Both the position numbers and the translations under genes were made by a program. 20,237 bases of DNA from positions 1 through 20,237 of the IMG/VR virus record IMGVR_UViG_3300013137_000137; one strand, 5' to 3'. The notes beneath the pieces are model-generated. The model did no database searches. It saw only the letters and a program-made list of their open reading frames with translations, and was not told the origin of the DNA. This document shows, piece after piece, positions 2,817 to 15,723 of the stretch (position 1 is the first letter of the stretch; the number at the start of each line of letters is the position of its first letter). Source of the stretch: a virus.

Positions 2817-4799
2817 ATGGCAACGAACTATCTTAAAAACCTACACTCAGCCAGTTACCTGGTACCTGAGAAGGCTGCCAAAAAGGCTCAGGCCAGTGTC
2901 CTGGAAAAACTGAACAGTGACTCCGATAAGAACCGGGAGAACCGGACCCTTCTTGAGATCTGTCAGATGCACTGGAATAACATGAGCGACTACCGGGACC
3001 GAAGAGCCCGTGCCAGGAATTATGAACGGGGCAAACAGTGGTATGAACTCACTGAGGATGCCAACGGGGATACCCTTACGGAAGAGGAACTGATCCTCTC
3101 TCAGGGCAGACTCCCGTTAAAACAGAACATGATCCGGCAGTTGGTCCGTAACCTGATGGGCCAGTACCGGAGTAACCCTGTGAAAAGTGTGGTGATGAGC
3201 CGCACTCGTGAGGATCAGAAACTCTCGGAGATGATGAGTAACGCCATGCAAGCCGCCAAAGATCTGAACCAGGTAACCGAACTGGATGCACAGCTCTTCC
3301 ATGAGCATATCCTCTCAGGGTTCCCGATCCAGAAGGTAGGATTTAAACACTGGAAAACCCTGAACCGGAGCGACCTGTTATTACAGAATATCAACCCGTC
3401 CAGACTTTTCTACAATACCGACATGGCTGACCTCCGGGGATTCGACATGAACCTGATCGGGGAGATTGTGGATACCGATATCGAGTATCTGATCAGTCAG
3501 TTTGCTAAGACCCAGGCTGATGAGGAGTGGCTAAAAAACGAGTATGCGATCCGCAGACAGTTCAATCTCTCACAACCCGAGGGCATGAGCGCAGATTATG
3601 TGGACGGTATGGACTTTTATACCGCACCAGAAGGCAAGTGCCGGATCTTTGAGATATGGTACTTGCAAGGGGAATGGAGACTCTATGCCCATGATTACGC
3701 AACTGGTGAATATCGGTTTTACCCACTGGAACAGGAGGAACTTCTTAGGATTGAGAATGACAACCGTATCCTTCAGGCTGCTCAGTACGGAATCCTCCCG
3801 GAGGAAGTACCACAGATCGAGATGGAAAAGAAATACGAGCAAGTGTGGTACGTCAAGATCCTGACTCCATCGGGTAAATGTTTGTACGAAGGGGAGACTC
3901 CGTATGAACACGAGGAACATCCCTACACGATCAGCCTCTATCCGTTCATTGACGGGGAAGTATGGGGACTGGTAGAGGATATCATTGATCAGCAACGGCA
4001 GATCAACCGCCTGTTCTCGATGCTTGACTATATCATGGGAACGGATGCTAAAAATACCCTGGTGGTAGCCGAAGAGGCTATCGGGGATATGAATATCGAG
4101 GAATACGCAGAGAATTACGTCAAAGTAGGCGGAATCATCACCTACCGTTCCAAGAGCGGAGTACCCCCACCCTCGATCCTGTCCTCCAACAGCCGGAGTA
4201 TTACTGCCAGTGAGATTCTGGGCCTTCAGATGCACCTGATTAACCAACTTACAGGGCTCAACCCGGCCATTCAAGGTCAGAGTGCTCCTTCGGGCAAGGC
4301 TGCTAGTTTGTATGCCCTCGAGTCTCAGAACTCCGCTATTAACATCCGGGATATCATGGATTCGTTCTCCTCCTTTATGAAGAACCGGGACATGAAGATC
4401 CTAAAAGTGATCAAGCAGTTTTACAATGAACGGATTTACCTGGCTACCTCCGGAAAGAGTTATGCCGAAGAGGCCAAGGTGTACGACCCGATGGCCGTCA
4501 AGGATATGGAATTTACGAGCAGTATCGCACAAGGGATGGATACCCCGGTGTACCGTCAAATGGTGGATGAAACCCTGATGAATTTGTTCCAGGCTCAGGC
4601 CATTGACGTTATGACCTTACTCGAGAACTCTTCCCTGCCACAGGCTGATAAGATTATCGAAGGGATCAAGCGCAGACAGACCGAACTTCAGGAGCAAGCC
4701 GGACAGTCCGGGATGATGCCACCCGAGGCCATGCAGGAAGCCGGGATGCAGACCGGAGGCCCTCAGCCGCAAAACAGATTTTCTCCACCTCAAGAGTAG
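2817..4799 (+). CDS. Portal protein
   Basis: This 660-residue protein forms, by family, the dodecameric ring at the capsid vertex through which DNA is packaged and ejected and to which the tail attaches. The sequence shows the usual portal layout. An N-terminal helical, charged region is followed by RLPLKQNMIRQLVRNLMGQY near residue 100. A wing/clip region around 190-350 contains the segment NPSRLFYNTD. A conserved stem-region segment, GEVWGLVEDIIDQQRQINRL, lies near residues 380-400 and is typical of P22-like and gut-phage portals. The last 35 or so residues are Met/Gln/Pro/Gly-rich and likely disordered or barrel-forming. It follows the polyvalent gene by 8 bases, and the leader (cacacgat) has no Shine-Dalgarno motif, as is common in Bacteroidota. 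It is separated from terminase by an 11-kb inverted block, which is an unusual position. Confidence 0.9.
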   Translation: MATNYLKNLHSASYLVPEKAAKKAQASVLEKLNSDSDKNRENRTLLEICQMHWNNMSDYRDRRARARNYERGKQWYELTEDANGDTLTEEELILSQGRLPLKQNMIRQLVRNLMGQYRSNPVKSVVMSRTREDQKLSEMMSNAMQAAKDLNQVTELDAQLFHEHILSGFPIQKVGFKHWKTLNRSDLLLQNINPSRLFYNTDMADLRGFDMNLIGEIVDTDIEYLISQFAKTQADEEWLKNEYAIRRQFNLSQPEGMSADYVDGMDFYTAPEGKCRIFEIWYLQGEWRLYAHDYATGEYRFYPLEQEELLRIENDNRILQAAQYGILPEEVPQIEMEKKYEQVWYVKILTPSGKCLYEGETPYEHEEHPYTISLYPFIDGEVWGLVEDIIDQQRQINRLFSMLDYIMGTDAKNTLVVAEEAIGDMNIEEYAENYVKVGGIITYRSKSGVPPPSILSSNSRSITASEILGLQMHLINQLTGLNPAIQGQSAPSGKAASLYALESQNSAINIRDIMDSFSSFMKNRDMKILKVIKQFYNERIYLATSGKSYAEEAKVYDPMAVKDMEFTSSIAQGMDTPVYRQMVDETLMNLFQAQAIDVMTLLENSSLPQADKIIEGIKRRQTELQEQAGQSGMMPPEAMQEAGMQTGGPQPQNRFSPPQE

Positions 4800-4897: not shown

Positions 4898-6001
4898 TTA
4901 ACCTAATAATACCCCTGCAAGTCTTTTAACAATCTTTTCCGATGCCTTCCCATCACCGTGTTGATACTGCATTGAATTAAGCGAGTTTCCTTTATTAACA
5001 AACTCATTCAATTTGGCCCATCCGTTTAAGATAGAGAGCCCCGTCTTATCCATAAGTTTCCGGACAGACCATTCACAGGAAGTCCGAAGGGCGATCACGG
5101 GTTTTTCAGCCCAGGTTCCCTCCCGGACCAATCCTCCGGAATCACTCATCACTCCGATACAGTTTTGAACGAGCCATAAGCTCTCGAGATAAGAGACAGG
5201 TTTAATGGGAATCACATCATTGGCCATGCAGAGGGTTTTGATCCGGGCCAGATCAAACCTTGGGTGAACGGGCCAGACAGCCGGGAGTCCGATAAAGTCA
5301 ATCGCCTTTAATACCTCCCGGATAAACTCATCCGTCACATCCGCCCGGTGCAGGGTCAGATAGATAAATTTCTCCGTAGGCCCCACTCCTTCCAGTTCCT
5401 TGGGTACTCTGGCCTGGTCCTTAAACATCAGGAAGGTGTCCAATAGGATATCGCACCCAAACACAGTCTTGGGTGAATAATTAACAGAGGATATCCTTTC
5501 TGAATATATTCCAACTCCCGTATCATAAGTATATGAGGACTGGTATTCCAGGTTTTGTGTGGCTGCAAAATGATGTTCAGCGATCTCGTCCACCAGGATC
5601 CGGTTCATCTCCTCCGGTTGGCTCCGGTCAAAACTCCGGCAATAGGCCTCGATATGGCCCACCGGAATATTGAGTTTCATGGCTGACAATGCCCCTGCCA
5701 GCGTAGAATCCGTGTCCCCTACCACCAATACCAGATCCGGGGAGAGGTTGAGCAGTTCATCCGTGATCCGGAGAATCATTGAAGAGAGCCGAGCCCTGTT
5801 ATCCGGAGGGCAACTCAGTGTCCGAATTTCCGGGAGGTTCAGTTCCCGGATCAGGTCCTCATCCATCTCCTTGGAGTAGTGTTGTCCGGTATTGATCAGG
5901 GTGTACCGGATCTGGTCACTTACTTTGTTGAGCTCCTTGCAGAGCGGGGCCAGTTTAATGACTTGTGGCCTGGTCCCGAAAATGATGGCGATATGTTTCA
6001 T
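4898..6001 (-). CDS. UDP-N-acetylglucosamine 2-epimerase (non-hydrolysing), divergent
   Basis: By family this 367-residue enzyme interconverts UDP-GlcNAc and UDP-ManNAc (WecB/MnaA family), the entry step to ManNAc-derived sugars, in the cytoplasm. Seen in the sequence: the N-terminal motif FGTRPQVIKLAP (residues 8-19; GTRPE in most members), TGQHYSKEM (38-46), GDTDSTLAG with Asp96 (95-103), HIEAYCRSFDRSQPEEMNR (116-134) carrying Glu118 and Glu131, LTLHRADV with His218, and a C-terminal SDSGGLVREG nucleotide-binding loop. These match the catalytic Asp/Glu/Glu/His set of WecB. The usual EAGLRS is EAYCRS here, so fine specificity could differ; UDP-N-acetylated uronic acid epimerases (WbpI/WlbD-type) belong to the same family and are an alternative. 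Its ATG overlaps the stop of the upstream 75-residue ORF (ATGA), and it is the last gene of the minus operon, followed by a terminator. Confidence 0.88.
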   Translation of the reverse strand: MKHIAIIFGTRPQVIKLAPLCKELNKVSDQIRYTLINTGQHYSKEMDEDLIRELNLPEIRTLSCPPDNRARLSSMILRITDELLNLSPDLVLVVGDTDSTLAGALSAMKLNIPVGHIEAYCRSFDRSQPEEMNRILVDEIAEHHFAATQNLEYQSSYTYDTGVGIYSERISSVNYSPKTVFGCDILLDTFLMFKDQARVPKELEGVGPTEKFIYLTLHRADVTDEFIREVLKAIDFIGLPAVWPVHPRFDLARIKTLCMANDVIPIKPVSYLESLWLVQNCIGVMSDSGGLVREGTWAEKPVIALRTSCEWSVRKLMDKTGLSILNGWAKLNEFVNKGNSLNSMQYQHGDGKASEKIVKRLAGVLLG

Positions 6002-6225
6002 TGTATCTGATTTAAATAGTCCTCAAAACTTTGCTCCGGATCATGGTTAAAGTGAACCATCCGGGCGTTATACTTGGCTGCTATCCAGGTTTCCCTCATT
6101 AACCGGATCACCTCCGAATTTCTCAATAGGGTGTTTCTCCGGCTCTTCCTTGAGAACAGGGGAATCTTCAGCAGACTCAATCCCTTTTCGTAACTTTTTC
6201 TCACACGCTCTGTCATATCGTTCAA
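5998..6225 (-). CDS. Small protein of unknown function overlapping the zincin-like gene
   Basis: A 75-residue ORF whose first 158 bases overlap, out of frame, the 3' end of the upstream zincin-like gene. The N-terminal half is strongly basic (RKSYEKG, SRKSRRN). The C-terminal half, coded by unique sequence, looks like a normal folded protein (ETWIAAKYNARMVHFNHDPE, acidic at the end). Its TGA overlaps the epimerase ATG by four bases (ATGA), the junction type used throughout this operon, which supports translation up to this point. The ATG at 6225 gives the long overlap. No good later start exists except Met43, which would leave about 33 residues. Alternatively, this segment could be reached by frameshifting from the upstream gene. 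No family recognised. Confidence 0.55.
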   Translation of the reverse strand: MNDMTERVRKSYEKGLSLLKIPLFSRKSRRNTLLRNSEVIRLMRETWIAAKYNARMVHFNHDPEQSFEDYLNQIQ

Positions 6226-6580
6226 TAGATTTATAGACTAATCGTACTAAATGACCCACCAGGTAGGCTTGCGCCTCATTATTCTCAGCGTTCATTTCTA
6301 CCCCGGCATCCGAGAGGATCTTCCAGGAGGCATGAACAGCCTCATGGGCTACCTCATCCGGATCTGAATCCGGGCAGACATGAATCAGGGTGAAATAGGA
6401 GATCGAAGTATCCTCGTCGAAAATGTTCAGAAAGAACGCACTAGCCCCAGCTACCTGAGAGGAAAAAGAGATTTTCAGATATTTCTCAATCTTCTTATAT
6501 CCATCCTCTCCCTCATCCGATACCACTATCATCAGGTTCCGGCCATAAGGCTCAATCGTATGCCATTTCTTTTGAATCAT
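6068..6580 (-). CDS. Putative zincin-like metalloprotein (HEAVH motif)
   Basis: A 170-residue protein with the HExxH motif HEAVH at residues 79-83 and a downstream acidic segment NEAQAYLVGH (101-110). Glu102 sits where a third zinc ligand would be in a gluzincin-like fold. The preceding part (about 10-78) reads as alternating beta strands, including YFTLIHVCPDSDP. The C-terminal 45 residues are charged, Pro/Glu-rich and probably disordered, and coincide with the out-of-frame overlap with the next ORF. I associate proteins with HEAVHA plus a downstream EAxAYLVG with the structural regions of Bacteroidota phages, without knowing a substrate. Its ATG overlaps the stop of the 122-residue gene (ATGA). 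Peptidase activity is inferred from the motif alone; an inactive or structural zinc protein is possible. Confidence 0.7.
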   Translation of the reverse strand: MIQKKWHTIEPYGRNLMIVVSDEGEDGYKKIEKYLKISFSSQVAGASAFFLNIFDEDTSISYFTLIHVCPDSDPDEVAHEAVHASWKILSDAGVEMNAENNEAQAYLVGHLVRLVYKSIERYDRACEKKLRKGIESAEDSPVLKEEPEKHPIEKFGGDPVNEGNLDSSQV

Positions 6581-6945
6581 TTCTCCCCTCCGTATCCAAA
6601 GTGATCCCTGAGTAGTTGCAGATTATACAACTCATTCCCGTACTCGAGAAAGTATGCCAGGTAGTGTTTTAATTCCGGGTAGAGTTCCAGTTTCTTAATC
6701 AGTCGGTTGGCTGCCTGACGAGGCGAGATAAAGTCCGGGATCAGGGTGTTGGCCAGTGAGTACCATTTCTTCTCTTCCTCTAGGATCAGGTTCATAAAGT
6801 CTGCACTGACTCCCGGTCCCTGTCCGCTCTCATAGTAGTTGAAGGACCGTACCCCGTGAGGCATCAGGTGTTCCTTGAACCGTTGCACCCCGCCATAATG
6901 GGAGATACTCTTGACAATCCGTTTATAGAGCTGGTTTTTGTTCAT
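6577..6945 (-). CDS. Conserved-looking phage protein of unknown function
   Basis: A 122-residue, mostly helical, slightly basic soluble protein that I do not recognise. The N-terminus (NKNQLYKRIVKSISHYGGV) suggests a helix-turn element. Residues about 30-50 hold a glycine-rich turn (YYESGQGPGVSADF). The C-terminal half is amphipathic helices ending in a GYGGEK tail. No signal peptide, membrane segment or metal motif is visible. It has four-base ATGA overlaps at both ends, with the Stealth-like gene upstream and the zincin-like gene downstream, which strongly supports expression as part of the operon. No function can be assigned. Confidence 0.7.
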   Translation of the reverse strand: MNKNQLYKRIVKSISHYGGVQRFKEHLMPHGVRSFNYYESGQGPGVSADFMNLILEEEKKWYSLANTLIPDFISPRQAANRLIKKLELYPELKHYLAYFLEYGNELYNLQLLRDHFGYGGEK

Positions 6946-7670
6946 GCCAGTAAGGTTTTCAGATATTTCTTTAAATCCTCGGTGTATCCCTTGTTGTCAT
7001 AGTTCAGAAACAGGTGTCCTGGGATATACTTCTCAATCCAACTTTTGATATGAGGTTCATACAGCCCAATTTTGACAGTCGGATTCTCGGCCAAGGTTTC
7101 ATACGGGGCCAAAAAGAAACGGTTGAAATAGAGGGTAGGAATCATCCGTGGCTGAGTTAACAGGTGAAACTCGTCCAACAGGATCCTCATGTTCTCCTTA
7201 TTGAATACCCTCGGTAGGTGGGTCTCGTAATTCCATAACGCAAGTTTGCGGCTTTTAAGGTCGTTAATTGTTGCATTGAATACCGTGGTCCACTGGGAAG
7301 AGGGTTTGCGTTTGCCGTTCCAGTAGGTACTGGGATCACTGATGTGGTCCTGGGCCCGAACTACCGAGAAATCATCAAAGGTTGCTTTCCTCAGCAGGAT
7401 GATATCATCGTACATATACACAAAGTCCTCGGAAATCTCCTTGTAATTACAGATCAGCTCGAGTTTGCGTGAGGCATCCAGGGCCTTGGGGAAACGGTTG
7501 TCCGTTACCCTGTTAGCCGGGATATGCCGGACTCCGGGTATCCTGGGATTATCCCCTACCACAAAGATCCGGTGCTCTCCCTGAAAGAATTTTCGGAGAC
7601 TACGGACACTGGATTCTATCTCCCCTCCCATGATCCCCATCCGGGAATAGACAAATACGAAGTCAATCAT
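6942..7670 (-). CDS. Stealth-like glycosyl- or sugar-phosphate transferase
   Basis: About 242 residues from the ATG at 7670. A GTG one codon earlier at 7673 is also possible, but the ATG fits better. The protein begins IDFVFVYSRMG and contains FVYMYDDIILL (about 84-94), an aromatic-hydrophobic stretch with Asp-Asp at 89-90. This resembles the conserved YxNDDxF-type segment of Stealth family proteins (capsular hexose-1-phosphate transferases) and the DxD region of GT-A transferases. Later His and Trp-rich motifs (THLPRVFNKENM, HIKSWIEKYIPGH) also fit a sugar-transferring enzyme. It lies between a GT4 gene and small ORFs in the glycan cassette. The start overlaps the 50-residue upstream ORF by 8 bases, and the end overlaps the next gene with ATGA. 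The family link is distant, and donor and acceptor are unknown. Confidence 0.6.
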   Translation of the reverse strand: MIDFVFVYSRMGIMGGEIESSVRSLRKFFQGEHRIFVVGDNPRIPGVRHIPANRVTDNRFPKALDASRKLELICNYKEISEDFVYMYDDIILLRKATFDDFSVVRAQDHISDPSTYWNGKRKPSSQWTTVFNATINDLKSRKLALWNYETHLPRVFNKENMRILLDEFHLLTQPRMIPTLYFNRFFLAPYETLAENPTVKIGLYEPHIKSWIEKYIPGHLFLNYDNKGYTEDLKKYLKTLLA

Positions 7671-7815
7671 CACAACAGGCTCCTAAATCTTTGATATACT
7701 GAGCAAATCCCCACAAAGGCAAATGTCCGTTGTGGAAATAGAATCTGAGCCGGGTTTTCTTGGACAGCCGCCCAATCACCTTGATCACGCAGCAGGGGAT
7801 GAGGGTTTTTTTCAT
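7663..7815 (-). CDS. Small 50-residue cysteine-containing protein
   Basis: This ORF fills the otherwise empty 138-base space between the GT4 and Stealth-like genes. Its ATG (7815-7813) forms an ATGA overlap with the GT4 stop, and its TGA (7665-7663) lies just inside the start of the next gene, so it is a coupled link in the operon. The product is basic in the first half (RLSKKTRLR) and has two Cys pairs, CC at residues 8-9 and 47-48, as well as an aromatic/His patch (FYFHNGHLPLWGF). The spacing does not make an obvious zinc finger. No family recognised. Support comes from gene packing, not homology. Confidence 0.55.
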   Translation of the reverse strand: MKKTLIPCCVIKVIGRLSKKTRLRFYFHNGHLPLWGFAQYIKDLGACCDD

Positions 7816-8813
7816 ATTGTTAATAGGGTTTGAAATCGTTTTACACTCTCAGGGATACTGTAAAACCTGGACCGCTCGGAGAGTGTCTTGCTGAAATAGG
7901 GTTTCGTATGAATCGCATACTGGATCTTGTTGACCAGTTCCTCCGGACTCCCGTTGATAATATCCTTCATAAAGAGCGGATAGTCGTCTCCGAGCATTTC
8001 CCTTCGGGCCGGAGAGTCCTGACAGATAATCGGGATTCCGCAAGCCATGGGTTCCAGGGTTTTCAGGTTTCCACAAAACTCCCATTCCACTCCCCGCTGG
8101 CTGACAATGATCACATCACAGGCATTGTAGACATAGGGCATCAGGGTATTACTGAACTGGCACTCCCGGATAGCGGGATGTTTGGGTAAGGGAATCGAGT
8201 TTTTTCCTTTGCCGGATCCTACCAGTATCACAAACTCATTCCCGAATTTCTCCTGAAGCATCCTGAGACTCTTCATCAGCAAGGTGGGATAAGTGCTCTT
8301 AACCACCCGGCCAAAGAGTCCGATCACCACCTTCTTATCCAGTGTGTCCTGGATCTTTTTGGTATCCGGGTGCAGGGGAAGTGGCATCAGCCCCGGCATC
8401 AGGGTTTGATAGAACGGGACAGCGTGTGGCCACCTCTCTCCATCGGGATTTAATGGCCCGAGTTTCTTCCCCTCTCTCAAATACGTTGACCACACGCCTG
8501 TAAATGCCCCGATCAGATCGGCCTTGGAAAACATCTCCCTGTCAAACGGACTGCTCACCCACACCCGTTTTCCCTGGCACTTTAAAAACACCTTTCGGTT
8601 TGCCCGGATGATGGACCAGTTGGCTGGCACCACCCGGATCTCCCCTTCATACTCCTTTAACCCATAATCAGGCAGTTCCGGACGGAACCGCTGACCAGCG
8701 TAATATACCTCTGCAAACCTCGAGAGGGCCATACAGTGACCGATCTCGTTCACACGGTCCCCTTCTAAAGGTTCCAGGGTTTTTAAGGTGCTGTATTGAT
8801 AATAGATCCTCAT
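7812..8813 (-). CDS. Glycosyltransferase, GT4-type (GT-B fold)
   Basis: A 333-residue protein with the Rossmann-type C-terminal half of family 4 glycosyltransferases: VVIGLFGRVVKSTYP (162-176), VILVGSGKG (195-203), and the donor-binding segment EWEFCGNLKTLEPMACGIP (243-261), in which LEPMACG matches the conserved LEAMACG signature. The N-terminal domain (1-155), which normally binds the acceptor, is divergent and lacks a clear glycine-rich loop at the start. No signal or membrane segment is present, so it should act in the cytoplasm. Such enzymes transfer a sugar from an NDP-sugar to a glycan, lipid or protein acceptor with retention. It is joined by ATGA overlaps to the class I methyltransferase upstream and the 50-residue ORF downstream. 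The donor may be made by the cassette's own sugar-nucleotide enzymes. Confidence 0.85.
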   Translation of the reverse strand: MRIYYQYSTLKTLEPLEGDRVNEIGHCMALSRFAEVYYAGQRFRPELPDYGLKEYEGEIRVVPANWSIIRANRKVFLKCQGKRVWVSSPFDREMFSKADLIGAFTGVWSTYLREGKKLGPLNPDGERWPHAVPFYQTLMPGLMPLPLHPDTKKIQDTLDKKVVIGLFGRVVKSTYPTLLMKSLRMLQEKFGNEFVILVGSGKGKNSIPLPKHPAIRECQFSNTLMPYVYNACDVIIVSQRGVEWEFCGNLKTLEPMACGIPIICQDSPARREMLGDDYPLFMKDIINGSPEELVNKIQYAIHTKPYFSKTLSERSRFYSIPESVKRFQTLLTI

Positions 8814-9394
8814 CGGATTACTCCTTCACTGAGCCACATGATTTTTTTATTACCAAAGGCATGGATCCGTTGGAATACCAACAGGTCTCCATAGCGTTCC
8901 AGTACGGACATTTTCGAGGGGAATACCCTGACATGGCCCGTACACTTGTAACTGGGTACCGAAAAGATTACCCGTTGTCCACGGGGAAGGTTCCGGAATA
9001 CCCGTAAGTCGTTCTCTATATGCTCCAATACCTCAAAGGAGGTTACAAAGGAGCTGGGTACTAACCATGGATAAGGGACCTCATTCAAATCTTGCCGGGA
9101 GAACTGTCCGGAGTGATCCTTCATTCTCTCCTGACACATATCAATCGCCTCCTGGGAGAAGTCAATCCCACCCATGACCATGATCCCGCTCCGGTGAGCC
9201 AGGTCCGCAAACTGACCGGGACCACACCCGATATCAAACACGGTATGTTTCAGGGGAGAATCCTTAATCCACTGCACGGCCATACTCCACATGGGAAAAT
9301 ACTGGCTCTCTTCTGCCGGAAGGAAATACCGCTCTTTCTTCTCACGGTCTCCCCGGTAGATATCATCATAATAGGTAGCTGGTTTTTCGTTCAT
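8810..9394 (-). CDS. Class I SAM-dependent methyltransferase
   Basis: A 194-residue protein with a clear class I S-adenosylmethionine fold: motif I VFDIGCGPGQF (52-62), the acidic ribose-binding end of strand 2 in GIDFSQEAI (76-84), QDLNEVPYP (101-109), and the post-III signature SFEVLEHIEND (119-129). This pattern is usual in methyltransferases acting on sugars and other small or glycan substrates (UbiG/Methyltransf_11-12-like), not on DNA. It is flanked by two glycosyltransferase genes and overlaps both by four bases, so O-methylation of a glycan residue or its terminal cap is the natural guess, though a protein substrate cannot be excluded. It is short, with no added acceptor domain. Confidence 0.85.
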   Translation of the reverse strand: MNEKPATYYDDIYRGDREKKERYFLPAEESQYFPMWSMAVQWIKDSPLKHTVFDIGCGPGQFADLAHRSGIMVMGGIDFSQEAIDMCQERMKDHSGQFSRQDLNEVPYPWLVPSSFVTSFEVLEHIENDLRVFRNLPRGQRVIFSVPSYKCTGHVRVFPSKMSVLERYGDLLVFQRIHAFGNKKIMWLSEGVIR

Positions 9395-10902
9395 AACTGT
9401 ATCAGGTTTTTGTGATGGGTAAGTAATTTCTCCCGGAGCTCGGTATTGATCCGGATCTTTTCAGGGTCCTTCTTGCGCTGGATATGCTGACTGTTCTCAT
9501 CCACCCGGTAGAACCATTCCACTTTCCGGTTGTAGACAAATACATTTCCGAGTTTTTTATAGATTCTCAGCCACAGATCCCAGTACGCATGATTACCCCA
9601 CTTCAGGTCAAAGGGCGTGAACTGGTCCACGATACTCCGGTGTATGGTAGCGCAGTCGTTAACAAAGTTCCCCTCAAGGTGACGTTTAATATCGTAGGGA
9701 TGGAAATGGTGGGTTCTTCCTGGATTCAGTCTGGAGTCCACCCGCATAAAGTCTGAGTAGCACACCAGTTTTTTCTCCCGTTTGCAGAGCTGAGTCTCGT
9801 CATACATTTTGGTCGGAGAGGCCAGATCATTCCCGGAGGCATAGGCAAACCAGTCGCCCTGAATATAATGGAGGGCATGGTTTAACTGCTCGTAAATTCC
9901 TTTGGCCGGAGAGATACTCAGGGTTAGATTCTGTTCCTTGGCCAATAAGATAGAAGGATCCCCTGGAATGGTGGAGATAATGATCTGCATAAACACTCCG
10001 GTCTGATTCTGATAACTCTTGACGGCATCCCGAAGGATGGCCGGATCCTCATTGATGGTATTGATAATAACCGTACAGTATTCAGGGCTCATATTCTCTT
10101 CTTTTTCATTGATCACACCCCAGGGTTTCAGGGAGAACTTGTTATCCATCTCCATCCAGTCCTCGGGTAGGGTAATAAACTCCTTCATTCTTTCAGCCAG
10201 TTCATTATCCGTGGTTCCAATCTTCTCTCTCTCATCCTCAATAGACCGGACAATAGAATCCACATCGGTATAAGGGACTGCATTAGGGGCCTCTCCGTTC
10301 CACACCACTCTTCTCCCCATTAACCCCAACTCCACCACTGTATTACTCATCCCGTCATGCGGGGTTAAGCGAAGCCCCATAAAGCAGTCTGTATAATGTT
10401 TAACCAAATCACTCTTACTGTATACACCCATTTTGGCCAGTACAAACTGCTGTTTGGGCAGCCGGGTCCGTACATGGTCAATCAAATCCCCTCCGTAAAA
10501 AGTTCGTTGCGCCTGGTCTTTATCCGGTAGATACACATAGATTTTCTCTCCCAGTGGCGCAGCGGAAAACTCCGGATAAGTGAACGGGGTAATCGGGAGC
10601 CTCCGGTATTCGAGCCCGTACCGTTCCATGTCCCTGGCAATAAAGTTGGAGATAGCCACATGAAACACGCCCCGTTTCATTTTCAGCATCTTGACAAACT
10701 CCGGGGGTAGTCTCCAGGCATCCCCTCCGGACCATACAATCACCGCCCCGGCCTTATGGTCCATAATCCTATGCCACTGGCTCTGGTACAGACCAAAGAA
10801 CACGGCTGGCTCAAATCGGTTGTGATAGTGTTTAAATCCAAACTTCCTGAGAAATGGCTCCCGGAAATTCTTGCAACCAACAAAAGCCTGGGTGATTCGC
10901 AT
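9391..10902 (-). CDS. Two-domain glycosyltransferase: GT-B-like N-terminus plus GT2-like C-terminus
   Basis: A 503-residue protein that reads as two transferases in one chain. Residues 1-255 resemble a GT-B fold: AGAVIVWSGGDAWRLP (51-66), VFHVAISNFIARDM (79-92), then a donor-site-like segment GLRLTPHDGMSNTVVELGLM (176-195) with Glu191 in the usual position. After a charged linker (about 256-272), residues 273-503 look like a GT-A/GT2 domain: TVIINTINEDPAILRDAVKS (277-296), GIYEQLNHALHYIQGDWFAY (335-354) and GNDLASP (357-363), where GND replaces the DxD-type motif. Met271 (10092-10090) lies at the junction and might allow separate translation of the second domain. The upstream small ORF ends 2 bases before this start, and the methyltransferase start overlaps this stop (ATGA). 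A bifunctional enzyme adding two sugars is likely; substrates are unknown. Confidence 0.78.
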   Translation of the reverse strand: MRITQAFVGCKNFREPFLRKFGFKHYHNRFEPAVFFGLYQSQWHRIMDHKAGAVIVWSGGDAWRLPPEFVKMLKMKRGVFHVAISNFIARDMERYGLEYRRLPITPFTYPEFSAAPLGEKIYVYLPDKDQAQRTFYGGDLIDHVRTRLPKQQFVLAKMGVYSKSDLVKHYTDCFMGLRLTPHDGMSNTVVELGLMGRRVVWNGEAPNAVPYTDVDSIVRSIEDEREKIGTTDNELAERMKEFITLPEDWMEMDNKFSLKPWGVINEKEENMSPEYCTVIINTINEDPAILRDAVKSYQNQTGVFMQIIISTIPGDPSILLAKEQNLTLSISPAKGIYEQLNHALHYIQGDWFAYASGNDLASPTKMYDETQLCKREKKLVCYSDFMRVDSRLNPGRTHHFHPYDIKRHLEGNFVNDCATIHRSIVDQFTPFDLKWGNHAYWDLWLRIYKKLGNVFVYNRKVEWFYRVDENSQHIQRKKDPEKIRINTELREKLLTHHKNLIQL

Positions 10903-10904
10903 GG

Positions 10905-11108
10905 TTATTCTAATGTTTTTTGATATTCGTCATACCCTACCCTGAAGGCCTCAACCACCGCCTCGAGATCTTTGAAGGTGATAGTGAACGCATGGATCCC
11001 GATCACCATATCCAAAAAGTTCAGGTTATTCAGGTGATTATTCGTGAACGTGATACTGACAGGCTTATCCCTGGTATCCACATCGGCCTCAATGATCATC
11101 TTTGGCAT
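10905..11108 (-). CDS. Small protein of unknown function (67 residues)
   Basis: A 67-residue acidic protein that I do not recognise. It starts with a beta-strand pattern (MIIEADVD, KPVSITFTNN), passes through an Asn/Leu-rich turn (NNHLNNLNFLD) and ends in a helix (DLEAVVEAFRVGYDEYQ). No Cys, signal or membrane segment. It is packed tightly between the 107-residue gene (2 bases upstream) and the two-domain glycosyltransferase (2 bases downstream), so it is almost certainly co-translated with them. Small proteins like this are common near terminase genes in Bacteroidota phages, and the glycan genes around it may simply have been inserted beside it. Confidence 0.65.
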   Translation of the reverse strand: MPKMIIEADVDTRDKPVSITFTNNHLNNLNFLDMVIGIHAFTITFKDLEAVVEAFRVGYDEYQKTLE

Positions 11109-11110
11109 GG

Positions 11111-11434
11111 TTACGCTTGTTTTGGGTGTAAATCCTCGTAGGTTTTCCGGATCAGGGGATTGGTGGTACTGATATAACTGGCCGTTTTCAGGATGTTGTA
11201 GATCGAAACTTCCTTGCGGAACACTCCACGGGATTTTAACAGGTCAATATCTCGGGTAGAGAGGATCATAAACCCGCCCTTTTTCTCAATCACATACCGG
11301 GTTTTCCGGTCACCGAGGGTCAGTTTGTCGGACAGCTTACAGGCACGGGTAAGCCTCCGGGCTTTCCGTTTGACTTCCTGGGTCTCCATCAGGTAGCCCC
11401 ACCACTCTTTCAGGTCGTTAAATAGTCTTTTCAT
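11111..11434 (-). CDS. Small basic protein of unknown function (107 residues)
   Basis: A strongly basic 107-residue protein with an N-terminal amphipathic helix (LFNDLKEWWGYLMETQEV), a Lys/Arg-rich helix (KRKARRLTRACKLSD), a short beta hairpin ending in GGFMILSTRDIDLL and a C-terminal helical tail. This helix plus beta-hairpin layout reminds me of small proteins found in structural regions of gut phages, but I cannot name a family. The start at 11434 overlaps the upstream dehydrogenase by 17 bases. Met16 (11389) would remove the overlap and leave a 28-base gap. The basic helices could bind nucleic acid, which is speculative. Confidence 0.65.
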   Translation of the reverse strand: MKRLFNDLKEWWGYLMETQEVKRKARRLTRACKLSDKLTLGDRKTRYVIEKKGGFMILSTRDIDLLKSRGVFRKEVSIYNILKTASYISTTNPLIRKTYEDLHPKQA

Positions 11435-12200
11435 AATGGTCTGGATCGAATTTTTTAATCATATCAAGTGCCGAGGAGTCTGTAATCTGAGACAGGATCC
11501 GTTGATTCGGAGTGATACAGTGGCCGCCCAGTGGCATAGTCAGGTTCGGGAAGTAAGGCCGGGTAACATTACTCATCCCGAGAGCCTGATAGCCCTGATT
11601 ATAGGCCTTGAGATACTCCACCCAGGTATCATATCGGCATCCGTTTTCTTCGAGCATCTTGCGTACCTCGGCATTGATGGCCAGGCAGTTCCCGTAATAA
11701 GTGGTATCCCATACCTTCATGATCTCGGTTTGGGCCGCAGGGGTTACCACCCGGCAGTCAACATGGATACTGGAAAAGTGGTCGGAAATATTCTTAGCCA
11801 TTTCAAAATCATCCTGCTCGCATCCGATCCACTTGGTAAAGGTCAGAATCCCATCAGCGAGGTTGGGATGGACTCCGATCACCGGGGAGTGAACAACTAC
11901 GGGATCCATGTCAAGTAGTTCCATAATGTCCTTCCTCAGCGTTTCCGTAGTCCCAGGTTGTACGGTTGAGTGAATTACAATAAAGTCAGGGATAGACTCC
12001 TCTACCTCTTCAATCACGGAATCCACAAAATCAGCCATTCCTGTAAACGGGATACACACATGAAGGATATCACACTGCTCCGGCCCTTCCTGCCCGTTCA
12101 AATCCTTCCATGCCACTCCTTCCCATCCGGCCCGTTTATACACCTCATGTACACCTCTCCCGATCTCTCCATAACCCAAAATCTTCACTTGTGGTTTCAT
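11418..12200 (-). CDS. NDP-sugar 6-dehydrogenase-like protein, lacking the C-terminal domain
   Basis: A 260-residue member of the UDP-glucose/GDP-mannose/UDP-ManNAc dehydrogenase family. Seen: the NAD-binding loop GYGEIG (9-14), HSTVQPGTT (77-85), SPVIGVHP (105-112), a central helix KVWDTTYYGNCLAINAE (162-178) in the position of the dimerising core helix, and GGHCITPN (225-232) with Cys228 where WecC-type enzymes have the catalytic Cys of GGHCIPVDP. Full enzymes run to about 400-450 residues with a C-terminal UDP-binding domain; here the chain ends about 30 residues after the Cys. The chain ends at a normal stop, overlapping the next gene, so it looks like a compact form and not a recent break. 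It could oxidise UDP-ManNAc from the epimerase, or be a dehydrogenase-like protein with altered chemistry. Its start is 1 base after the Gfo/Idh/MocA stop. Confidence 0.8.
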   Translation of the reverse strand: MKPQVKILGYGEIGRGVHEVYKRAGWEGVAWKDLNGQEGPEQCDILHVCIPFTGMADFVDSVIEEVEESIPDFIVIHSTVQPGTTETLRKDIMELLDMDPVVVHSPVIGVHPNLADGILTFTKWIGCEQDDFEMAKNISDHFSSIHVDCRVVTPAAQTEIMKVWDTTYYGNCLAINAEVRKMLEENGCRYDTWVEYLKAYNQGYQALGMSNVTRPYFPNLTMPLGGHCITPNQRILSQITDSSALDMIKKFDPDHYEKTI

Positions 12201-12201
12201 C

Positions 12202-13017
12202 TTATTGCTGTTTAGTTGCGTCTAATTGTTTCTGAATCTTAAACACGGTCTCCATGATCTGAATGGTATCCTTGAACCCGTTGACCCGGCAGGGTATTTT
12301 CTGATCCACGCACCGGATGAACATTTCCAACTCCTCCTTGAGAAGGTTTGGCCTGTTCCAGTTATCCGGACGAACAGCCAGTTTCTCCCCGTTGCTTTTG
12401 ATGAATACGGTATCCCGGAATCTCACTTTGCTCACGGATACCGCATACAGGTCCACCTGTTTATTTCCACTGACCAGGGTAGCCCTGAGTTCGTGTTTGT
12501 TACCCTCGGCATGGACACACTCAAAGTTTTTTTCATTCAATGTATAGTGAGCCAGTGCGATATCATGAACCATCAGGGAGAGCAGGGCTCCTTCTTCCCG
12601 TGGGATTCCTCCGGCACGCATGGAGTTCATATAGACCACATCCCCGGAGGTTGACAGAAGGAACTTCCCGATCTCATCCATAAATACCAGTTGGTGCCCG
12701 GACATGAAAATGGAGTCTCCAAATACCTTAGTGAAATATTTTAACTGCCCGAGTTGCCACTCCTGTAAGAGCACGGGTTTTTCGCAGAATACCGGAATCC
12801 CATGTTGAATCATGTAAGACAGGATTGGAAAGTGGTTGACGGAAGATGTAGTGATAAGGACTGCATCCACGGGCCTCTTAGCATTTTCGATACGGTATTC
12901 TTTCACAAAATCCCATCCAAGGTCAATATCCAGCGTGGTTACTTTATGCCCGAGCTCGCCCAATATTCGCTTGTGGTTCTGGCCCCATTTCCCATCACCG
13001 AATTGTAGTATGTTCAT
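12202..13017 (-). CDS. Gfo/Idh/MocA-family oxidoreductase
   Basis: A 271-residue NAD(P)-dependent oxidoreductase. Seen: an N-terminal Rossmann motif in FGDGKWGQNHKRIL (6-19, Gly7/Gly9/Gly12), ITTSSVNHFPI (55-65), the hallmark CEKPVLL (78-84) with Lys80, and MVHDIALAHY (149-158), corresponding to the conserved Asp/His region of the C-terminal catalytic sheet. Family members oxidise sugar hydroxyls; WbpB/WlbA, for example, act at C3 of UDP-GlcNAcA. It is shorter than the usual 320-380 residues, as the C-terminal sheet domain is reduced. The neighbours are an NDP-sugar 6-dehydrogenase-like gene immediately downstream and a 36-residue membrane protein upstream (ATGA overlap), so a nucleotide-sugar substrate is likely. 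The exact substrate cannot be read from sequence. Confidence 0.83.
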   Translation of the reverse strand: MNILQFGDGKWGQNHKRILGELGHKVTTLDIDLGWDFVKEYRIENAKRPVDAVLITTSSVNHFPILSYMIQHGIPVFCEKPVLLQEWQLGQLKYFTKVFGDSIFMSGHQLVFMDEIGKFLLSTSGDVVYMNSMRAGGIPREEGALLSLMVHDIALAHYTLNEKNFECVHAEGNKHELRATLVSGNKQVDLYAVSVSKVRFRDTVFIKSNGEKLAVRPDNWNRPNLLKEELEMFIRCVDQKIPCRVNGFKDTIQIMETVFKIQKQLDATKQQ

Positions 13018-13124
13018 TTTTTATCCTTTCTTTTTCCGTCCTTTAACCATGCGTACAGAACCACTAGCAGGATTCCGCTGAATCCCAAAATGATGTATAG
13101 GTATCCAAAGAGTAGTGGTGTCAT
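13014..13124 (-). CDS. Small single-span membrane protein (36 residues)
   Basis: A short ORF in the 103-base gap between the DNA methyltransferase and the Gfo/Idh/MocA gene. The ATG (13124-13122) overlaps the methyltransferase stop and the TGA (13016-13014) overlaps the next ATG, so both junctions are ATGA. After MTP the product is a continuous hydrophobic span (residues 4-26, including YIILGFSGILLVVLY) followed by a basic tail (KDGKRKDKK). By the positive-inside rule this gives an outside N-terminus and a cytoplasmic C-terminus. Possible roles include a membrane anchor for the glycan enzymes, a holin-like or superinfection-exclusion peptide, or a regulator; none is shown. Perfect overlaps at both ends and the clean membrane topology make chance unlikely. 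Confidence 0.7.
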   Translation of the reverse strand: MTPLLFGYLYIILGFSGILLVVLYAWLKDGKRKDKK

Positions 13125-13732
13125 GTGAATAATCTTAGTTGTCGTTTATGCCAATCGAACCGTTTTTTTGCGGCCTCAAAATATTCCTTGTCAAGTTCGC
13201 ACCAATCCAAATCAAAGCCCATGTTGTGACAGGCAATACAGATAGAGCCTGATCCGCCGTGGGTGTCAAGAATTTTTTGGCCGGGATCAGCGAAAGTGTG
13301 TAAGACCCACTCGTAGAGTTGAACGGGTTTCTGAGTAGGGTGAATCTTATCTCCGGTCCGGTTATCGAACCGGTATAGTTTAGCAGGGTAGTCAAAAGAG
13401 GTCCATGCAAACTCAACCTGAGAGAAATTCTCCCATGGCTGCACTTTATCCCATGAGATAAAACAGCGTGTCGGCTCGAGGTTAAAGTAATTGCCCCCCC
13501 ATATAATACGATTTTTTGATACCCTTTTCAATTCGTTAAAGTATTCCTGATCAGGAACAACATCCCACTTCTCAAGGCTTCCATTATTAAGTATTCTGTT
13601 TTTAAGTTTACCCCTACCATGTGTTGAATCTTTAGGCATCCCATACGGCGGATCTACAATAGCCAAATCATAGAACTTGTCCGGTTTATCTGCCATCCAT
13701 TCCATGCAGTCTATGTTTATCATATTGACCAT
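13121..13732 (-). CDS. DNA adenine/cytosine-N4 methyltransferase (N6/N4 amino-MTase)
   Basis: A 203-residue enzyme with motif IV DPPYG (27-31) near the N-terminus, HPTQKPVQLY (131-140) and motif I DTHGGSGS (156-163) near the C-terminus. This permuted order is typical of beta-class amino-methyltransferases (N6_N4_Mtase family). The DTHxGSGS form of motif I, in place of DPFxGSGT, is frequent in phage methylases. Acting on phage or host DNA, it would transfer a methyl group from S-adenosylmethionine to adenine N6 or cytosine N4. The segment between motifs IV and X is short, so target recognition must be compact. No restriction endonuclease gene is nearby, so it is an orphan, probably protecting phage DNA from host restriction or marking it for packaging. 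The start overlaps the terminase stop by 1 base (TAATG); Met4 is an alternative start. Confidence 0.9.
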   Translation of the reverse strand: MVNMINIDCMEWMADKPDKFYDLAIVDPPYGMPKDSTHGRGKLKNRILNNGSLEKWDVVPDQEYFNELKRVSKNRIIWGGNYFNLEPTRCFISWDKVQPWENFSQVEFAWTSFDYPAKLYRFDNRTGDKIHPTQKPVQLYEWVLHTFADPGQKILDTHGGSGSICIACHNMGFDLDWCELDKEYFEAAKKRFDWHKRQLRLFT

Positions 13733-15723
13733 TACAAACTTGCCTCCGTCCGTTTTACTTTCCTGGTCGCCCGCTCCCGCTCCTTCACTTCAACACATGG
13801 ATCCATGGCTGAGTACATAGCCCACACGCCAATAGCAGTCGGCATCACCAAATCATCATGCGCTCCTTCCACGGCTCCCATCGTTCCATCGGGCTTGTGT
13901 TCAAACTGATCAGCCTCATCAATCACCCGGATATCCTTCTCGATATACATCCCATCCCGGAAGGCAGCGTTTAGCGCATCAATCACCATCGGTTTGGTTT
14001 GCTTGTTGGTATGGAATCCGTATTGCGTGGGAACTCCCTGCCGAACCTGTTCAGGCCGGGTACGGGTATATAAGTTTTGATATACACCGGAAATTTCATC
14101 CAGGATGGTCAGGTAATGTTCTCCTTCGGTATCCTCCTGAGAACTCCGGAGTGAGTTACTCTCAATAATCAACAGGGCCTCACCGTACCAGTAGGCTACC
14201 TGAGCAGCCAACCAGGCAAACAGATCCTGATCCAAATGACCCCGCCAGGTGGCCACCGCCTCCGGTACTCCTCCGTCACTCATCCAGTAACGGTCAAATA
14301 CCCGGATGGTGGAGTAGTCGGCTCCTTTACTCTTGCCTCCGATATCACAGATCACCACATAGCGGTTCTTGACTTTCAGGGTAGTATCCGGTTCCTCCCA
14401 TATCCACAATTCCCCACCTACCCTAGGCCTGAAAACAATGTTTTTAAAGGCATCCTTGCCCTTAATGGCATCGGCATAGAGTTGGCCCTTACTCACAGGT
14501 TCTGTACAGGTTTTTGAGGCCCGTTGGGTGTAATAAGGATTGAATACCCGTCTGCCGGATACCGTAAAGCTCTCCTCAGCCGTGGACGGGAACTCCTGGT
14601 TCATTTGTAAGTCCGAGTAATTCTCCCCGGCCTTAAAACTTATATACCAGTTAATCCCTTCGAGCGTGGCTCCCAGTTCCCACAACCACCTGTAATACTC
14701 GTTATCCTTAACTACATTCAGGTAAAATTCTTCCAGGTTATCCAGTTTCTTCCAATATAGGTCAATCTCCCACCACGAAACAAAACAAGCCCGGTAGGCA
14801 CTTCTCCCCTCAATGGCAGCCATCCATTCCCGGTGAAATAGATTACCCCGTCCCATGGCCGTGGATTCCAGTACCACCATGGACATGGATACATTCGGTA
14901 CGGTGGACCGGAGAGACTGAACCAGTTTATTTGCGTTCTTCTTGGTGGTCTGACTGTACATAGCCACCTCCGAGAGGTGGATCATGGCATAGTTGTAGGA
15001 GCGGAACTGATCCGGATTCTCCACCGAACCCACTCCGATTATACATCCCCGCTCCTTACAGATCACGTTCTTTCCGGATTTCTCATAAGGAGCCAGTGTG
15101 ATGGTTCCTAAATCTGCCGGATATAACTGAGCGGCACGAGTGTACATTCCCCGGATATTCCGGGCTGCATCATCCAAATGGGCGCAGATAGCCGAGTGCC
15201 AGTTGGTTTTCAGCCGTTGCTGAATCCACATCATATAAATCTGGGTAAGGGTAGAACCTCCCCACTGACGGGCTTTATCCACCACTTCCCGGATCGGCTG
15301 ATTGGCGAGTCGCTGCTCTTCGTAATCTTTCAGGAGTTTCCGCTGGGCTCCACGGCATACAAACGGGATTTCCTCGAGCGTCTCCTTATCCTGGATCTTA
15401 ATACACACGGCTGCCCAGTATTCAAAGTCATGATCCATCCGGATCTCACTGAGAGCGGCCATGAATATTTTCGTGTTTTCGTCAATGTTTTTTCGCAGTT
15501 CGTCAAATAGTTCGAGATATTTTTTTACACTCCCCGCTTTGATAACATTTTGAATTTCCTCGATACCCTCCATTGACTTAGGCAGATAGATCACCGTGTT
15601 CTCGTCCACGGCAAAGGGAAATCGCTCAATCGGGCTCCCGATCCCGGTCAGGGGATCATACGGAGCGTGCAGCAGAGCATTTCGCTTTTCGTTTTCTATT
15701 AATATATTGTCTAATTCTACCAC
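13732..15723 (-). CDS. Terminase large subunit (packaging ATPase and nuclease)
   Basis: This 663-residue motor cuts concatemeric phage DNA and pumps it through the portal. ATPase domain: the adenine/Walker A region KARQWGGSTLTQ (150-161), a Walker B-like stretch YAMIHLSEVAMY (245-256) in which Glu252 is the likely catalytic carboxylate and Ser replaces the usual Asp, and the coupling motif ESTAMGRGNLFHREW (286-300). Nuclease domain (RNase H-like): YVVICDIGGKSKGADYS with Asp460, LLIIESNS with Glu521, and GAHDDLVMPTAIG with Asp623/Asp624, giving the expected acidic triad. The start is a GTG 9 bases after the candidate small-subunit stop, as no in-frame ATG occurs before residue 51. The C-terminal tail is basic (RATRKVKRTE), the part that contacts portal or DNA in other phages. 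It is on the strand opposite to the portal and capsid genes. Confidence 0.93.
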   Translation of the reverse strand: MVELDNILIENEKRNALLHAPYDPLTGIGSPIERFPFAVDENTVIYLPKSMEGIEEIQNVIKAGSVKKYLELFDELRKNIDENTKIFMAALSEIRMDHDFEYWAAVCIKIQDKETLEEIPFVCRGAQRKLLKDYEEQRLANQPIREVVDKARQWGGSTLTQIYMMWIQQRLKTNWHSAICAHLDDAARNIRGMYTRAAQLYPADLGTITLAPYEKSGKNVICKERGCIIGVGSVENPDQFRSYNYAMIHLSEVAMYSQTTKKNANKLVQSLRSTVPNVSMSMVVLESTAMGRGNLFHREWMAAIEGRSAYRACFVSWWEIDLYWKKLDNLEEFYLNVVKDNEYYRWLWELGATLEGINWYISFKAGENYSDLQMNQEFPSTAEESFTVSGRRVFNPYYTQRASKTCTEPVSKGQLYADAIKGKDAFKNIVFRPRVGGELWIWEEPDTTLKVKNRYVVICDIGGKSKGADYSTIRVFDRYWMSDGGVPEAVATWRGHLDQDLFAWLAAQVAYWYGEALLIIESNSLRSSQEDTEGEHYLTILDEISGVYQNLYTRTRPEQVRQGVPTQYGFHTNKQTKPMVIDALNAAFRDGMYIEKDIRVIDEADQFEHKPDGTMGAVEGAHDDLVMPTAIGVWAMYSAMDPCVEVKERERATRKVKRTEASL

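Follow-up and report, generated by a model that had tools for sequence, protein, structure and literature searches.

The glycan cassette between portal and terminase

The viral record IMGVR_UViG_3300013137_000137 carries, at positions 4898–13017 of the reverse strand, a cassette encoding a sugar epimerase, two short oxidoreductases, three transferase-like proteins and a methyltransferase. The record is a 20,237 base pair (bp) fragment, analyzed over its whole length and referred to here as the window; statements on missing genes apply to this fragment alone. The cassette forms part of a dense run of reverse-strand genes headed by the terminase gene, in which neighbors overlap at starts and stops by 4–17 bp or lie 1–138 bp apart. 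Because of this spacing, cassette and terminase are suggested to share one transcript.

The cassette is bordered on the left by the portal gene (2817–4799, +; PHROG 156, 1.9e-61) and on the right by the gene for the large terminase subunit (13732–15723, −). Single-sequence scans of IMG/VR with the portal and the epimerase and two oxidoreductases gave no match, the query peptides having fallen in variable stretches. Relatives were recovered instead with alignments or a DNA motif, and the alignment-based scan gave 80 of them, most of which, like the window, are fragments; contigs compared with the window bear L numbers. Portal and near-full terminase lay on opposite strands in all 59 measurable relative loci. 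The gap between the two genes ranged from 95 to 9161 bp with a median of 1138 bp (58 loci with the terminase after the portal), and is 8933 bp in the window. The portal–terminase interval is thus a slot for cargo, which in the window is the cassette. A preliminary description of this DNA had proposed a phage-encoded glycan cassette, and the tight reverse-strand operon found between portal and terminase bears this out: the cassette is genuine, makes biological sense as a unit and recurs in related viruses.

Proteins of the cassette

The gene at 4898–6001 (−) encodes a 367-amino acid (aa) non-hydrolyzing uridine diphosphate (UDP)-sugar 2-epimerase, as had been proposed. It passed the Pfam Epimerase_2 profile (6.8e-56; 190 bits against a cutoff of 30.6), and the NCBIfam wecB model TIGR00236 scored 3.1e-57 and 194.4 bits, below the equivalog cutoff of 210.15. 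The best PDB alignment was to the UDP-GlcNAc3NAcA 2-epimerase 8SXV/8SXY (8e-44), with the UDP-N-acetylglucosamine (UDP-GlcNAc) 2-epimerase 4NEQ close behind. Residues were mapped by alignment to the T. thermophilus UDP-GlcNAc3NAcA epimerase. All of the catalytic and allosteric residues checked are kept (R11, K16, D96, E118, E131, H218, R219, S288, E294, R306 and E310), including the catalytic Lys, Asp, Glu, Glu, His and Arg (K16, D96, E118, E131, H218 and R306), and the enzyme is predicted to be catalytically intact.

In UDP-GlcNAc epimerases the C3 hydroxyl of the sugar is bound by a conserved Arg; the T. thermophilus enzyme has Trp307 instead, together with Ala18 in place of Leu/Met and Tyr96 in place of His/Gln (PMC10622841). 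The specificity positions of the window epimerase are Q13, L17, V94 and W311. The C3-binding Arg of WecB-type enzymes is therefore missing (W311), and one of the three WbpI-type residues (Ala18/Tyr96/Trp307 against L17, V94 and W311) is matched. At the positions of W311, L17 and V94, the other phage epimerases have W, L, F (L055), W, V, Y (L028), W, L, Y (L126) and Y, A, Y (L125). The C3-site Arg is gone from all five phage enzymes (Trp in four, Tyr in one), and all five carry Gln at position 14, where the cellular 2-epimerases compared (L116, L146 and L147) have Glu; these cellular enzymes keep the Arg at the C3 site. An altered C3 site is thus shared by these phage epimerases, with the window enzyme as a mixed case. 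The preliminary description had named the enzyme as WecB/WbpI. It leans toward WbpI (Gln13, Trp311), which is a better guess than WecB because Trp replaces the C3-binding Arg, though the other two positions differ. A literature search for phage-borne 2-epimerases found nothing relevant, which is not proof of absence. Epimerase matches by tblastn among cultured phages were generic and were set aside; an Acinetobacter record among them has a cellular gene neighborhood and looks like host DNA.

A short sugar-dehydrogenase-like protein of 260 aa (11418–12200, −) comprises a Rossmann and a middle domain and ends soon after its GGHC motif. Family-library scans matched it weakly to generic sugar-dehydrogenase models, with TIGR03026, the UDP-sugar dehydrogenase superfamily, at 1.3e-8 and 34 bits, short of the cutoff of 190. 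The UDP-binding domain UDPG_MGDP_dh_C (PF03720) was found neither in the window nor in 15 related records, whereas positive controls matched. The protein alone matched no PDB entry; a profile of five family members gave the UDP-N-acetylmannosamine (UDP-ManNAc) dehydrogenase 4R16 as best match (3.9e-7). Its predicted model, with a predicted local distance difference test (pLDDT) score of 81, is similar to both beta-hydroxyacid and sugar dehydrogenases.

Searching by motif and scanning genomes with two peptide patterns yielded 33 family members of 233–281 aa, a sample rather than a census. Besides the window protein, they come from five further phage contigs and from 27 cellular ones, almost all of the latter labeled as Patescibacteria groups. 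They fill 34 alignment rows because one gene is entered twice, as L089 and as L028, whose row is truncated where the locus ends. K162, H227 and C228 are present in every row, and T166 and N232 in 31 of the 34. Canonical UDP-sugar dehydrogenases such as the S. pyogenes enzyme have Asn and Asp at the latter two positions, which were assigned by motif spacing. Of the WecC/WbpA-type features, the catalytic Lys and Cys are thus kept, while Asn has become T166 and Asp N232. The window protein is 50–56% identical to those of four other phage contigs, and the phage members cluster together in an unrooted tree (support 88/87; 100/99 for five of them). A frameshift origin was rejected, since the whole family is just as short and the surrounding sequence has no third domain. 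One further motif match, L091, encodes no relative of the protein. By definition the 260-aa protein is not a WecC, the absent UDP-binding domain being, as judged from the alignment, characteristic of the family rather than the result of truncation; of the WecC/WbpA-like 6-dehydrogenase described earlier, the superfamily alone holds. A sugar role is likely, because the cellular homologs have a DegT aminotransferase-like gene nearby in 12 of 27 loci and a PseB-like dehydratase gene in 10 of 27. Patescibacteria glycan loci (L097–L123) commonly include the short dehydrogenase, and PseB-like, DegT, cytidylyltransferase or NeuB-like genes often lie close to it.

The adjoining gene (12202–13017, −) encodes a 271-aa Gfo/Idh/MocA oxidoreductase (Pfam, 1.4e-6) with an E79-K80-P81 motif, in agreement with the family assigned before. 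This short Gfo protein measures 254–271 aa in the window, L055 and L096, and solved Gfo/Idh/MocA proteins match its N-terminal half only. Its profile matched 22 Gfo-type PDB chains, none of them WbpB. The Gfo protein of L028, on the other hand, matched WbpB 3O9Z at 5e-94; the method therefore detects WbpB where it is present. By these comparisons the 271-aa protein is not WbpB, contrary to the earlier assignment. Genuine WbpB does occur in the portal-adjacent slot of two phages, L028 (12082–12957) and L125 (4469–5383), accompanied in both by Tyr96-type epimerases.

As described, the cassette has three transferase-like proteins and a single methyltransferase; one of the transferases had escaped recognition as a predicted Stealth-type sugar-1-phosphate transferase (243 aa; 6942–7673, −). 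Its D89-D90 and YETHLPR (H152) motifs are invariant in the alignment of homologs. Pfam Stealth_CR2 scored 21.5 bits, below the cutoff of 39.4, and was sub-threshold in all four homologs scanned (5.4e-4 to 1.4e-5), including those of L055, L028 and L096. The sequence profile of the family matched no PDB entry, and the fold alone reveals the likeness. An AlphaFold model from ten homologs (pLDDT 91.3) gave CpsY 8J2N (1.7e-9) and the GlcNAc-1-phosphotransferase GNPTAB (1.5e-8) as top Foldseek matches in the PDB, with template modeling scores of about 0.6 and ahead of other GT-A enzymes. Stealth members have been described as hexose-1-phosphate transferases (PMC5974469). A literature search for Stealth proteins in phages found nothing relevant, which does not prove their absence, and a tblastn search of cultured phages found no relative of the Stealth-like protein, the 260-aa dehydrogenase or the short Gfo protein.

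The remaining transferases are a GT4-like GT-B glycosyltransferase of 333 aa (7812–8813, −; Pfam Glycos_transf_1, 1.1e-9), 46% identical to its L028 homolog, and a two-part protein of 503 aa (9391–10902, −). The latter has a C-terminal GT2 domain (Pfam Glycos_transf_2, 0.002, below cutoff) and an N-terminal domain that matches no family, and is conserved in L055 and L028. Between them lies the gene for a class I S-adenosylmethionine-dependent methyltransferase of 194 aa (8810–9394, −; Pfam Methyltransf_23, 2.3e-9).

Sister phages, host supply and neighboring genes

Partial cassettes occupy the same slot in L055, L028, L096 and L126 and lie beside the portal in L125 and L023. L055 (portal 53% identical) has the epimerase, Stealth-like protein, fused transferase, a homolog of a 107-aa cassette protein and the short Gfo protein, without the dehydrogenase. 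L096 (portal 56%) has the short Gfo protein, in which His151 is replaced by Gln, the dehydrogenase, the 107-aa homolog, the Stealth-like protein and other transferases, without the epimerase. L028 combines genuine WbpB with the dehydrogenase, fused transferase, GT4, Stealth-like protein and epimerase; L126 has a methyltransferase, transferases, Stealth-like protein and, of the three pathway enzymes, the epimerase only; and L125 has the Stealth-like protein, epimerase and WbpB. The Stealth-like protein recurs most consistently among these versions. Because L055, L096 and L126 each carry a different subset, the epimerase, dehydrogenase and Gfo protein are separable and not an obligate set. The L028 cassette also includes a DHH phosphoesterase gene (13380–14321). 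A three-gene transferase/methyltransferase block is 62–88% identical between L092 (1033–2800) and L096 (5124–7365), which suggests that glycan modules are exchanged between phages.

Profile searches with positive controls found no DegT aminotransferase, hexapeptide acetyltransferase or UDPG_MGDP_dh_C domain in the record, and the phages compared have no aminotransferase, acetyltransferase or full-length sugar dehydrogenase. The lack of the first two enzymes had been noted before, with the suggestion that the host supplies them, and a candidate supplier was found. The L096 contig is binned in a Bacteroidetes metagenome-assembled genome (MAG), whose WbpB is 53–61% identical to the phage WbpB proteins (61% to that of L028). 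A 438-aa full-length dehydrogenase is encoded 0.5 kilobases downstream, and the MAG also has a DegT aminotransferase gene followed by one for a 195-aa hexapeptide-type acetyltransferase, read as such from its sequence. The MAG thus appears to encode WbpA and WbpB with candidate WbpD and WbpE. None of its three Epimerase_2 genes is WbpI-type, the Arg being retained in two and the third giving a poor alignment; the phages may accordingly add an epimerase that the host is missing, with which this absence is consistent. In Porphyromonas gingivalis and Tannerella forsythia, the sugar that links type IX secretion cargo comes from Wbp-type sugars (PMC7468200).

The left part of the window (1–2808) is the C-terminal end of a very long protein, followed by the portal; in relatives, open reading frames of more than 3000 aa end just before the portal. 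Scaffold, major capsid and small head genes occupy the right part on the forward strand. The reverse block between portal and scaffold consists of an 85-aa gene, the large terminase, a DNA methyltransferase gene (13121–13732, −; PHROG 67, 1.1e-36) and then the cassette. Some relatives also have this DNA methyltransferase gene, such as L096 (3360–4058) and L015 (12566). Within the cassette, a 170-aa protein (6068–6580, −) belongs to PHROG 1365, a family with no assigned function, and has a HEAVH motif; L055 has a PHROG 1365 protein in the same slot position. Small HExxH proteins recur beside the cassette or in the slot (L055, 14270–14713; L096, 4832–5143, HETIH; L125, 6576–6932, HEALH) and are possibly small metallopeptidases. 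A 122-aa protein (6577–6945, −) matched no family in Pfam, PHROG and NCBIfam scans. A 67-aa reading frame (10905–11108, −) is followed by the gene for the small conserved 107-aa protein (11111–11434, −), also found in L055, L096 and L126; a 124-aa protein takes its place in L028.

Interpretation and comparison with known systems

The gene content, slot, protein families, residue patterns and predicted folds of two proteins point to a late glycan cassette that draws on host Wbp-type precursors, with the epimerase, transferases and Stealth-like protein building a glycan for the virion. We give this reading a probability of roughly 45%. The phage would not synthesize its sugar from scratch, and would take UDP-sugars from the host, most likely Wbp-type 2,3-diacetamido-glucuronate precursors. 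The epimerase with its WbpI-like C3 pocket would flip C2 to the manno form, and two glycosyltransferases and the Stealth-type sugar-1-phosphate transferase would assemble a short glycan or phosphoglycan, which the methyltransferase may cap. The two short oxidoreductases probably oxidize a sugar, UDP not being recognized in the fashion of WecC or WbpB. Because the cassette is co-located with the terminase in its variable slot, expression would be late, and glycosylation of the virion would be expected rather than a change of the host surface.

Several points weigh against this proposal for substrate, product, order of steps, target and host. L17 of the epimerase is the UDP-GlcNAc form and V94 neither form. 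No close relative of either short oxidoreductase has been solved, and confidence in the dehydrogenase model drops around the catalytic loop (pLDDT <50 at 224–230). The MAG link is one binned contig, and binning is not proof of host.

It is possible, though somewhat less probable, that the cassette remodels the host envelope, masking receptors or excluding superinfection. Wbp-type sugars are Bacteroidota surface sugars (PMC7468200), and the partial pathways of the relatives make sense only with host metabolism. Family scans of the window proteins, however, recognized no flippase, polymerase or membrane glycosyltransferase, and the position within the terminase operon suggests late expression. 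The co-occurrence of epimerase and Stealth-like protein in the window, L055, L028, L125 and L126, together with the Stealth fold of the 243-aa protein, would fit a system like the serogroup A capsule, in which UDP-ManNAc made by the epimerase would let the Stealth protein transfer ManNAc-1-phosphate and so give a phosphodiester-linked glycan, the oxidoreductases being accessory. The meningococcal CsaA/CsaB enzymes are a parallel for this pairing. Such a system is nevertheless unlikely, as the epimerase pocket at C3 differs from the UDP-GlcNAc type and L096 carries the Stealth-like protein without an epimerase.

The pathway named in the preliminary description, with WecB-like and WecC-like enzymes converting UDP-GlcNAc to UDP-N-acetylmannosaminuronic acid (UDP-ManNAcA) and a WbpB-like 3-oxidation, is only partly right. 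The correct superfamilies do stand together in one operon, and the dehydrogenase has its catalytic Lys and Cys in 34 of 34 rows and 4R16 as best profile match. As a whole it is improbable: the dehydrogenase is without a UDP-binding domain and has the Asn-to-Thr and Asp-to-Asn changes in 31 of 34 rows, the epimerase is without the Arg that UDP-GlcNAc epimerases have, the Gfo protein is not WbpB, and the three enzymes occur separately among relatives. A lost domain and two lost catalytic residues, with His151 of the Gfo protein changed in L096, might suggest that the oxidoreductases are degenerate, non-catalytic remnants and that only the transferases and epimerase matter. This is distinctly unlikely given the strong conservation of the dehydrogenase across phages and Patescibacteria (K162, H227 and C228 in 34/34; 50–56% identity between the window protein and those of four other phage contigs). 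Modification of DNA bases, rather than of proteins or envelope, can be given very little credence. A DNA methyltransferase gene does lie in the same operon, and in L095 the short dehydrogenase adjoins a DNA methyltransferase and replication-type genes; yet family scans of the window showed no gene for hypermodified-base synthesis, and Stealth enzymes are not known to act on DNA.

More speculatively, and with rather low confidence, the 260-aa protein may found a distinct phage/Patescibacteria family of sugar oxidoreductases that act without UDP recognition, the phage oxidizing its glycan after transfer. Its substrate would then be, for example, a sugar already on lipid, protein or phosphodiester and not a nucleotide sugar. 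As the slot is defined and swappable, its variants across sister phages offer a ready-made series for sorting out gene roles. Wbp-type sugars matter at Bacteroidota surfaces, and a phage tapping that pathway would be of interest for host recognition.

Compared with WecC and other UDP-sugar 6-dehydrogenases (4R16, 3OJL and 1DLI), the 260-aa protein shares the Rossmann and middle domains, catalytic Lys and GGHC cysteine, but differs in lacking the C-terminal domain, in the Asn-to-Thr and Asp-to-Asn changes and in having an HSPxxGxHP motif where an SPE motif is usual. The short Gfo protein has the superfamily and EKP motif of WbpB/WlbA (3O9Z and 3OA2) but is shorter and does not match WbpB. The epimerase shares with its closest solved relative by score, 8SXV/8SXY, the catalytic set, Gln14 and the Trp in place of the C3-binding Arg; the two are distant, the window enzyme having Leu where the relative has Ala18 and Val where it has Tyr96, and M. 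jannaschii 4NEQ scores almost equally. The Stealth-like protein resembles CpsY (8J2N) and GNPTAB (7S6N and 9BGG) in fold, DD motif and HxP motif, but is shorter, about 15% identical and sub-threshold to Stealth_CR2.

The Bacteroides phages BS-TP4, BKO1-TP3 and BF1-TP2 have portal, terminase, scaffold and major capsid in common with the window, their portals being 32–35% identical to the window portal, and the virus probably infects bacteria of the Bacteroidota. Unlike the window, BS-TP4 and BKO1-TP3 have merely two small genes between portal and terminase, without a glycan cassette. Both belong to a lineage related to that of the window, whose gene order and strands they share (giant gene, portal, reverse terminase block, scaffold, capsid), and their terminase, recorded as 'tail spike', matches the window terminase at 38–39%. 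Phage glycan cassettes are already known; here a predicted Stealth-type phosphotransferase is combined with two families of short oxidoreductases and an epimerase whose C3 site is WbpI-like.

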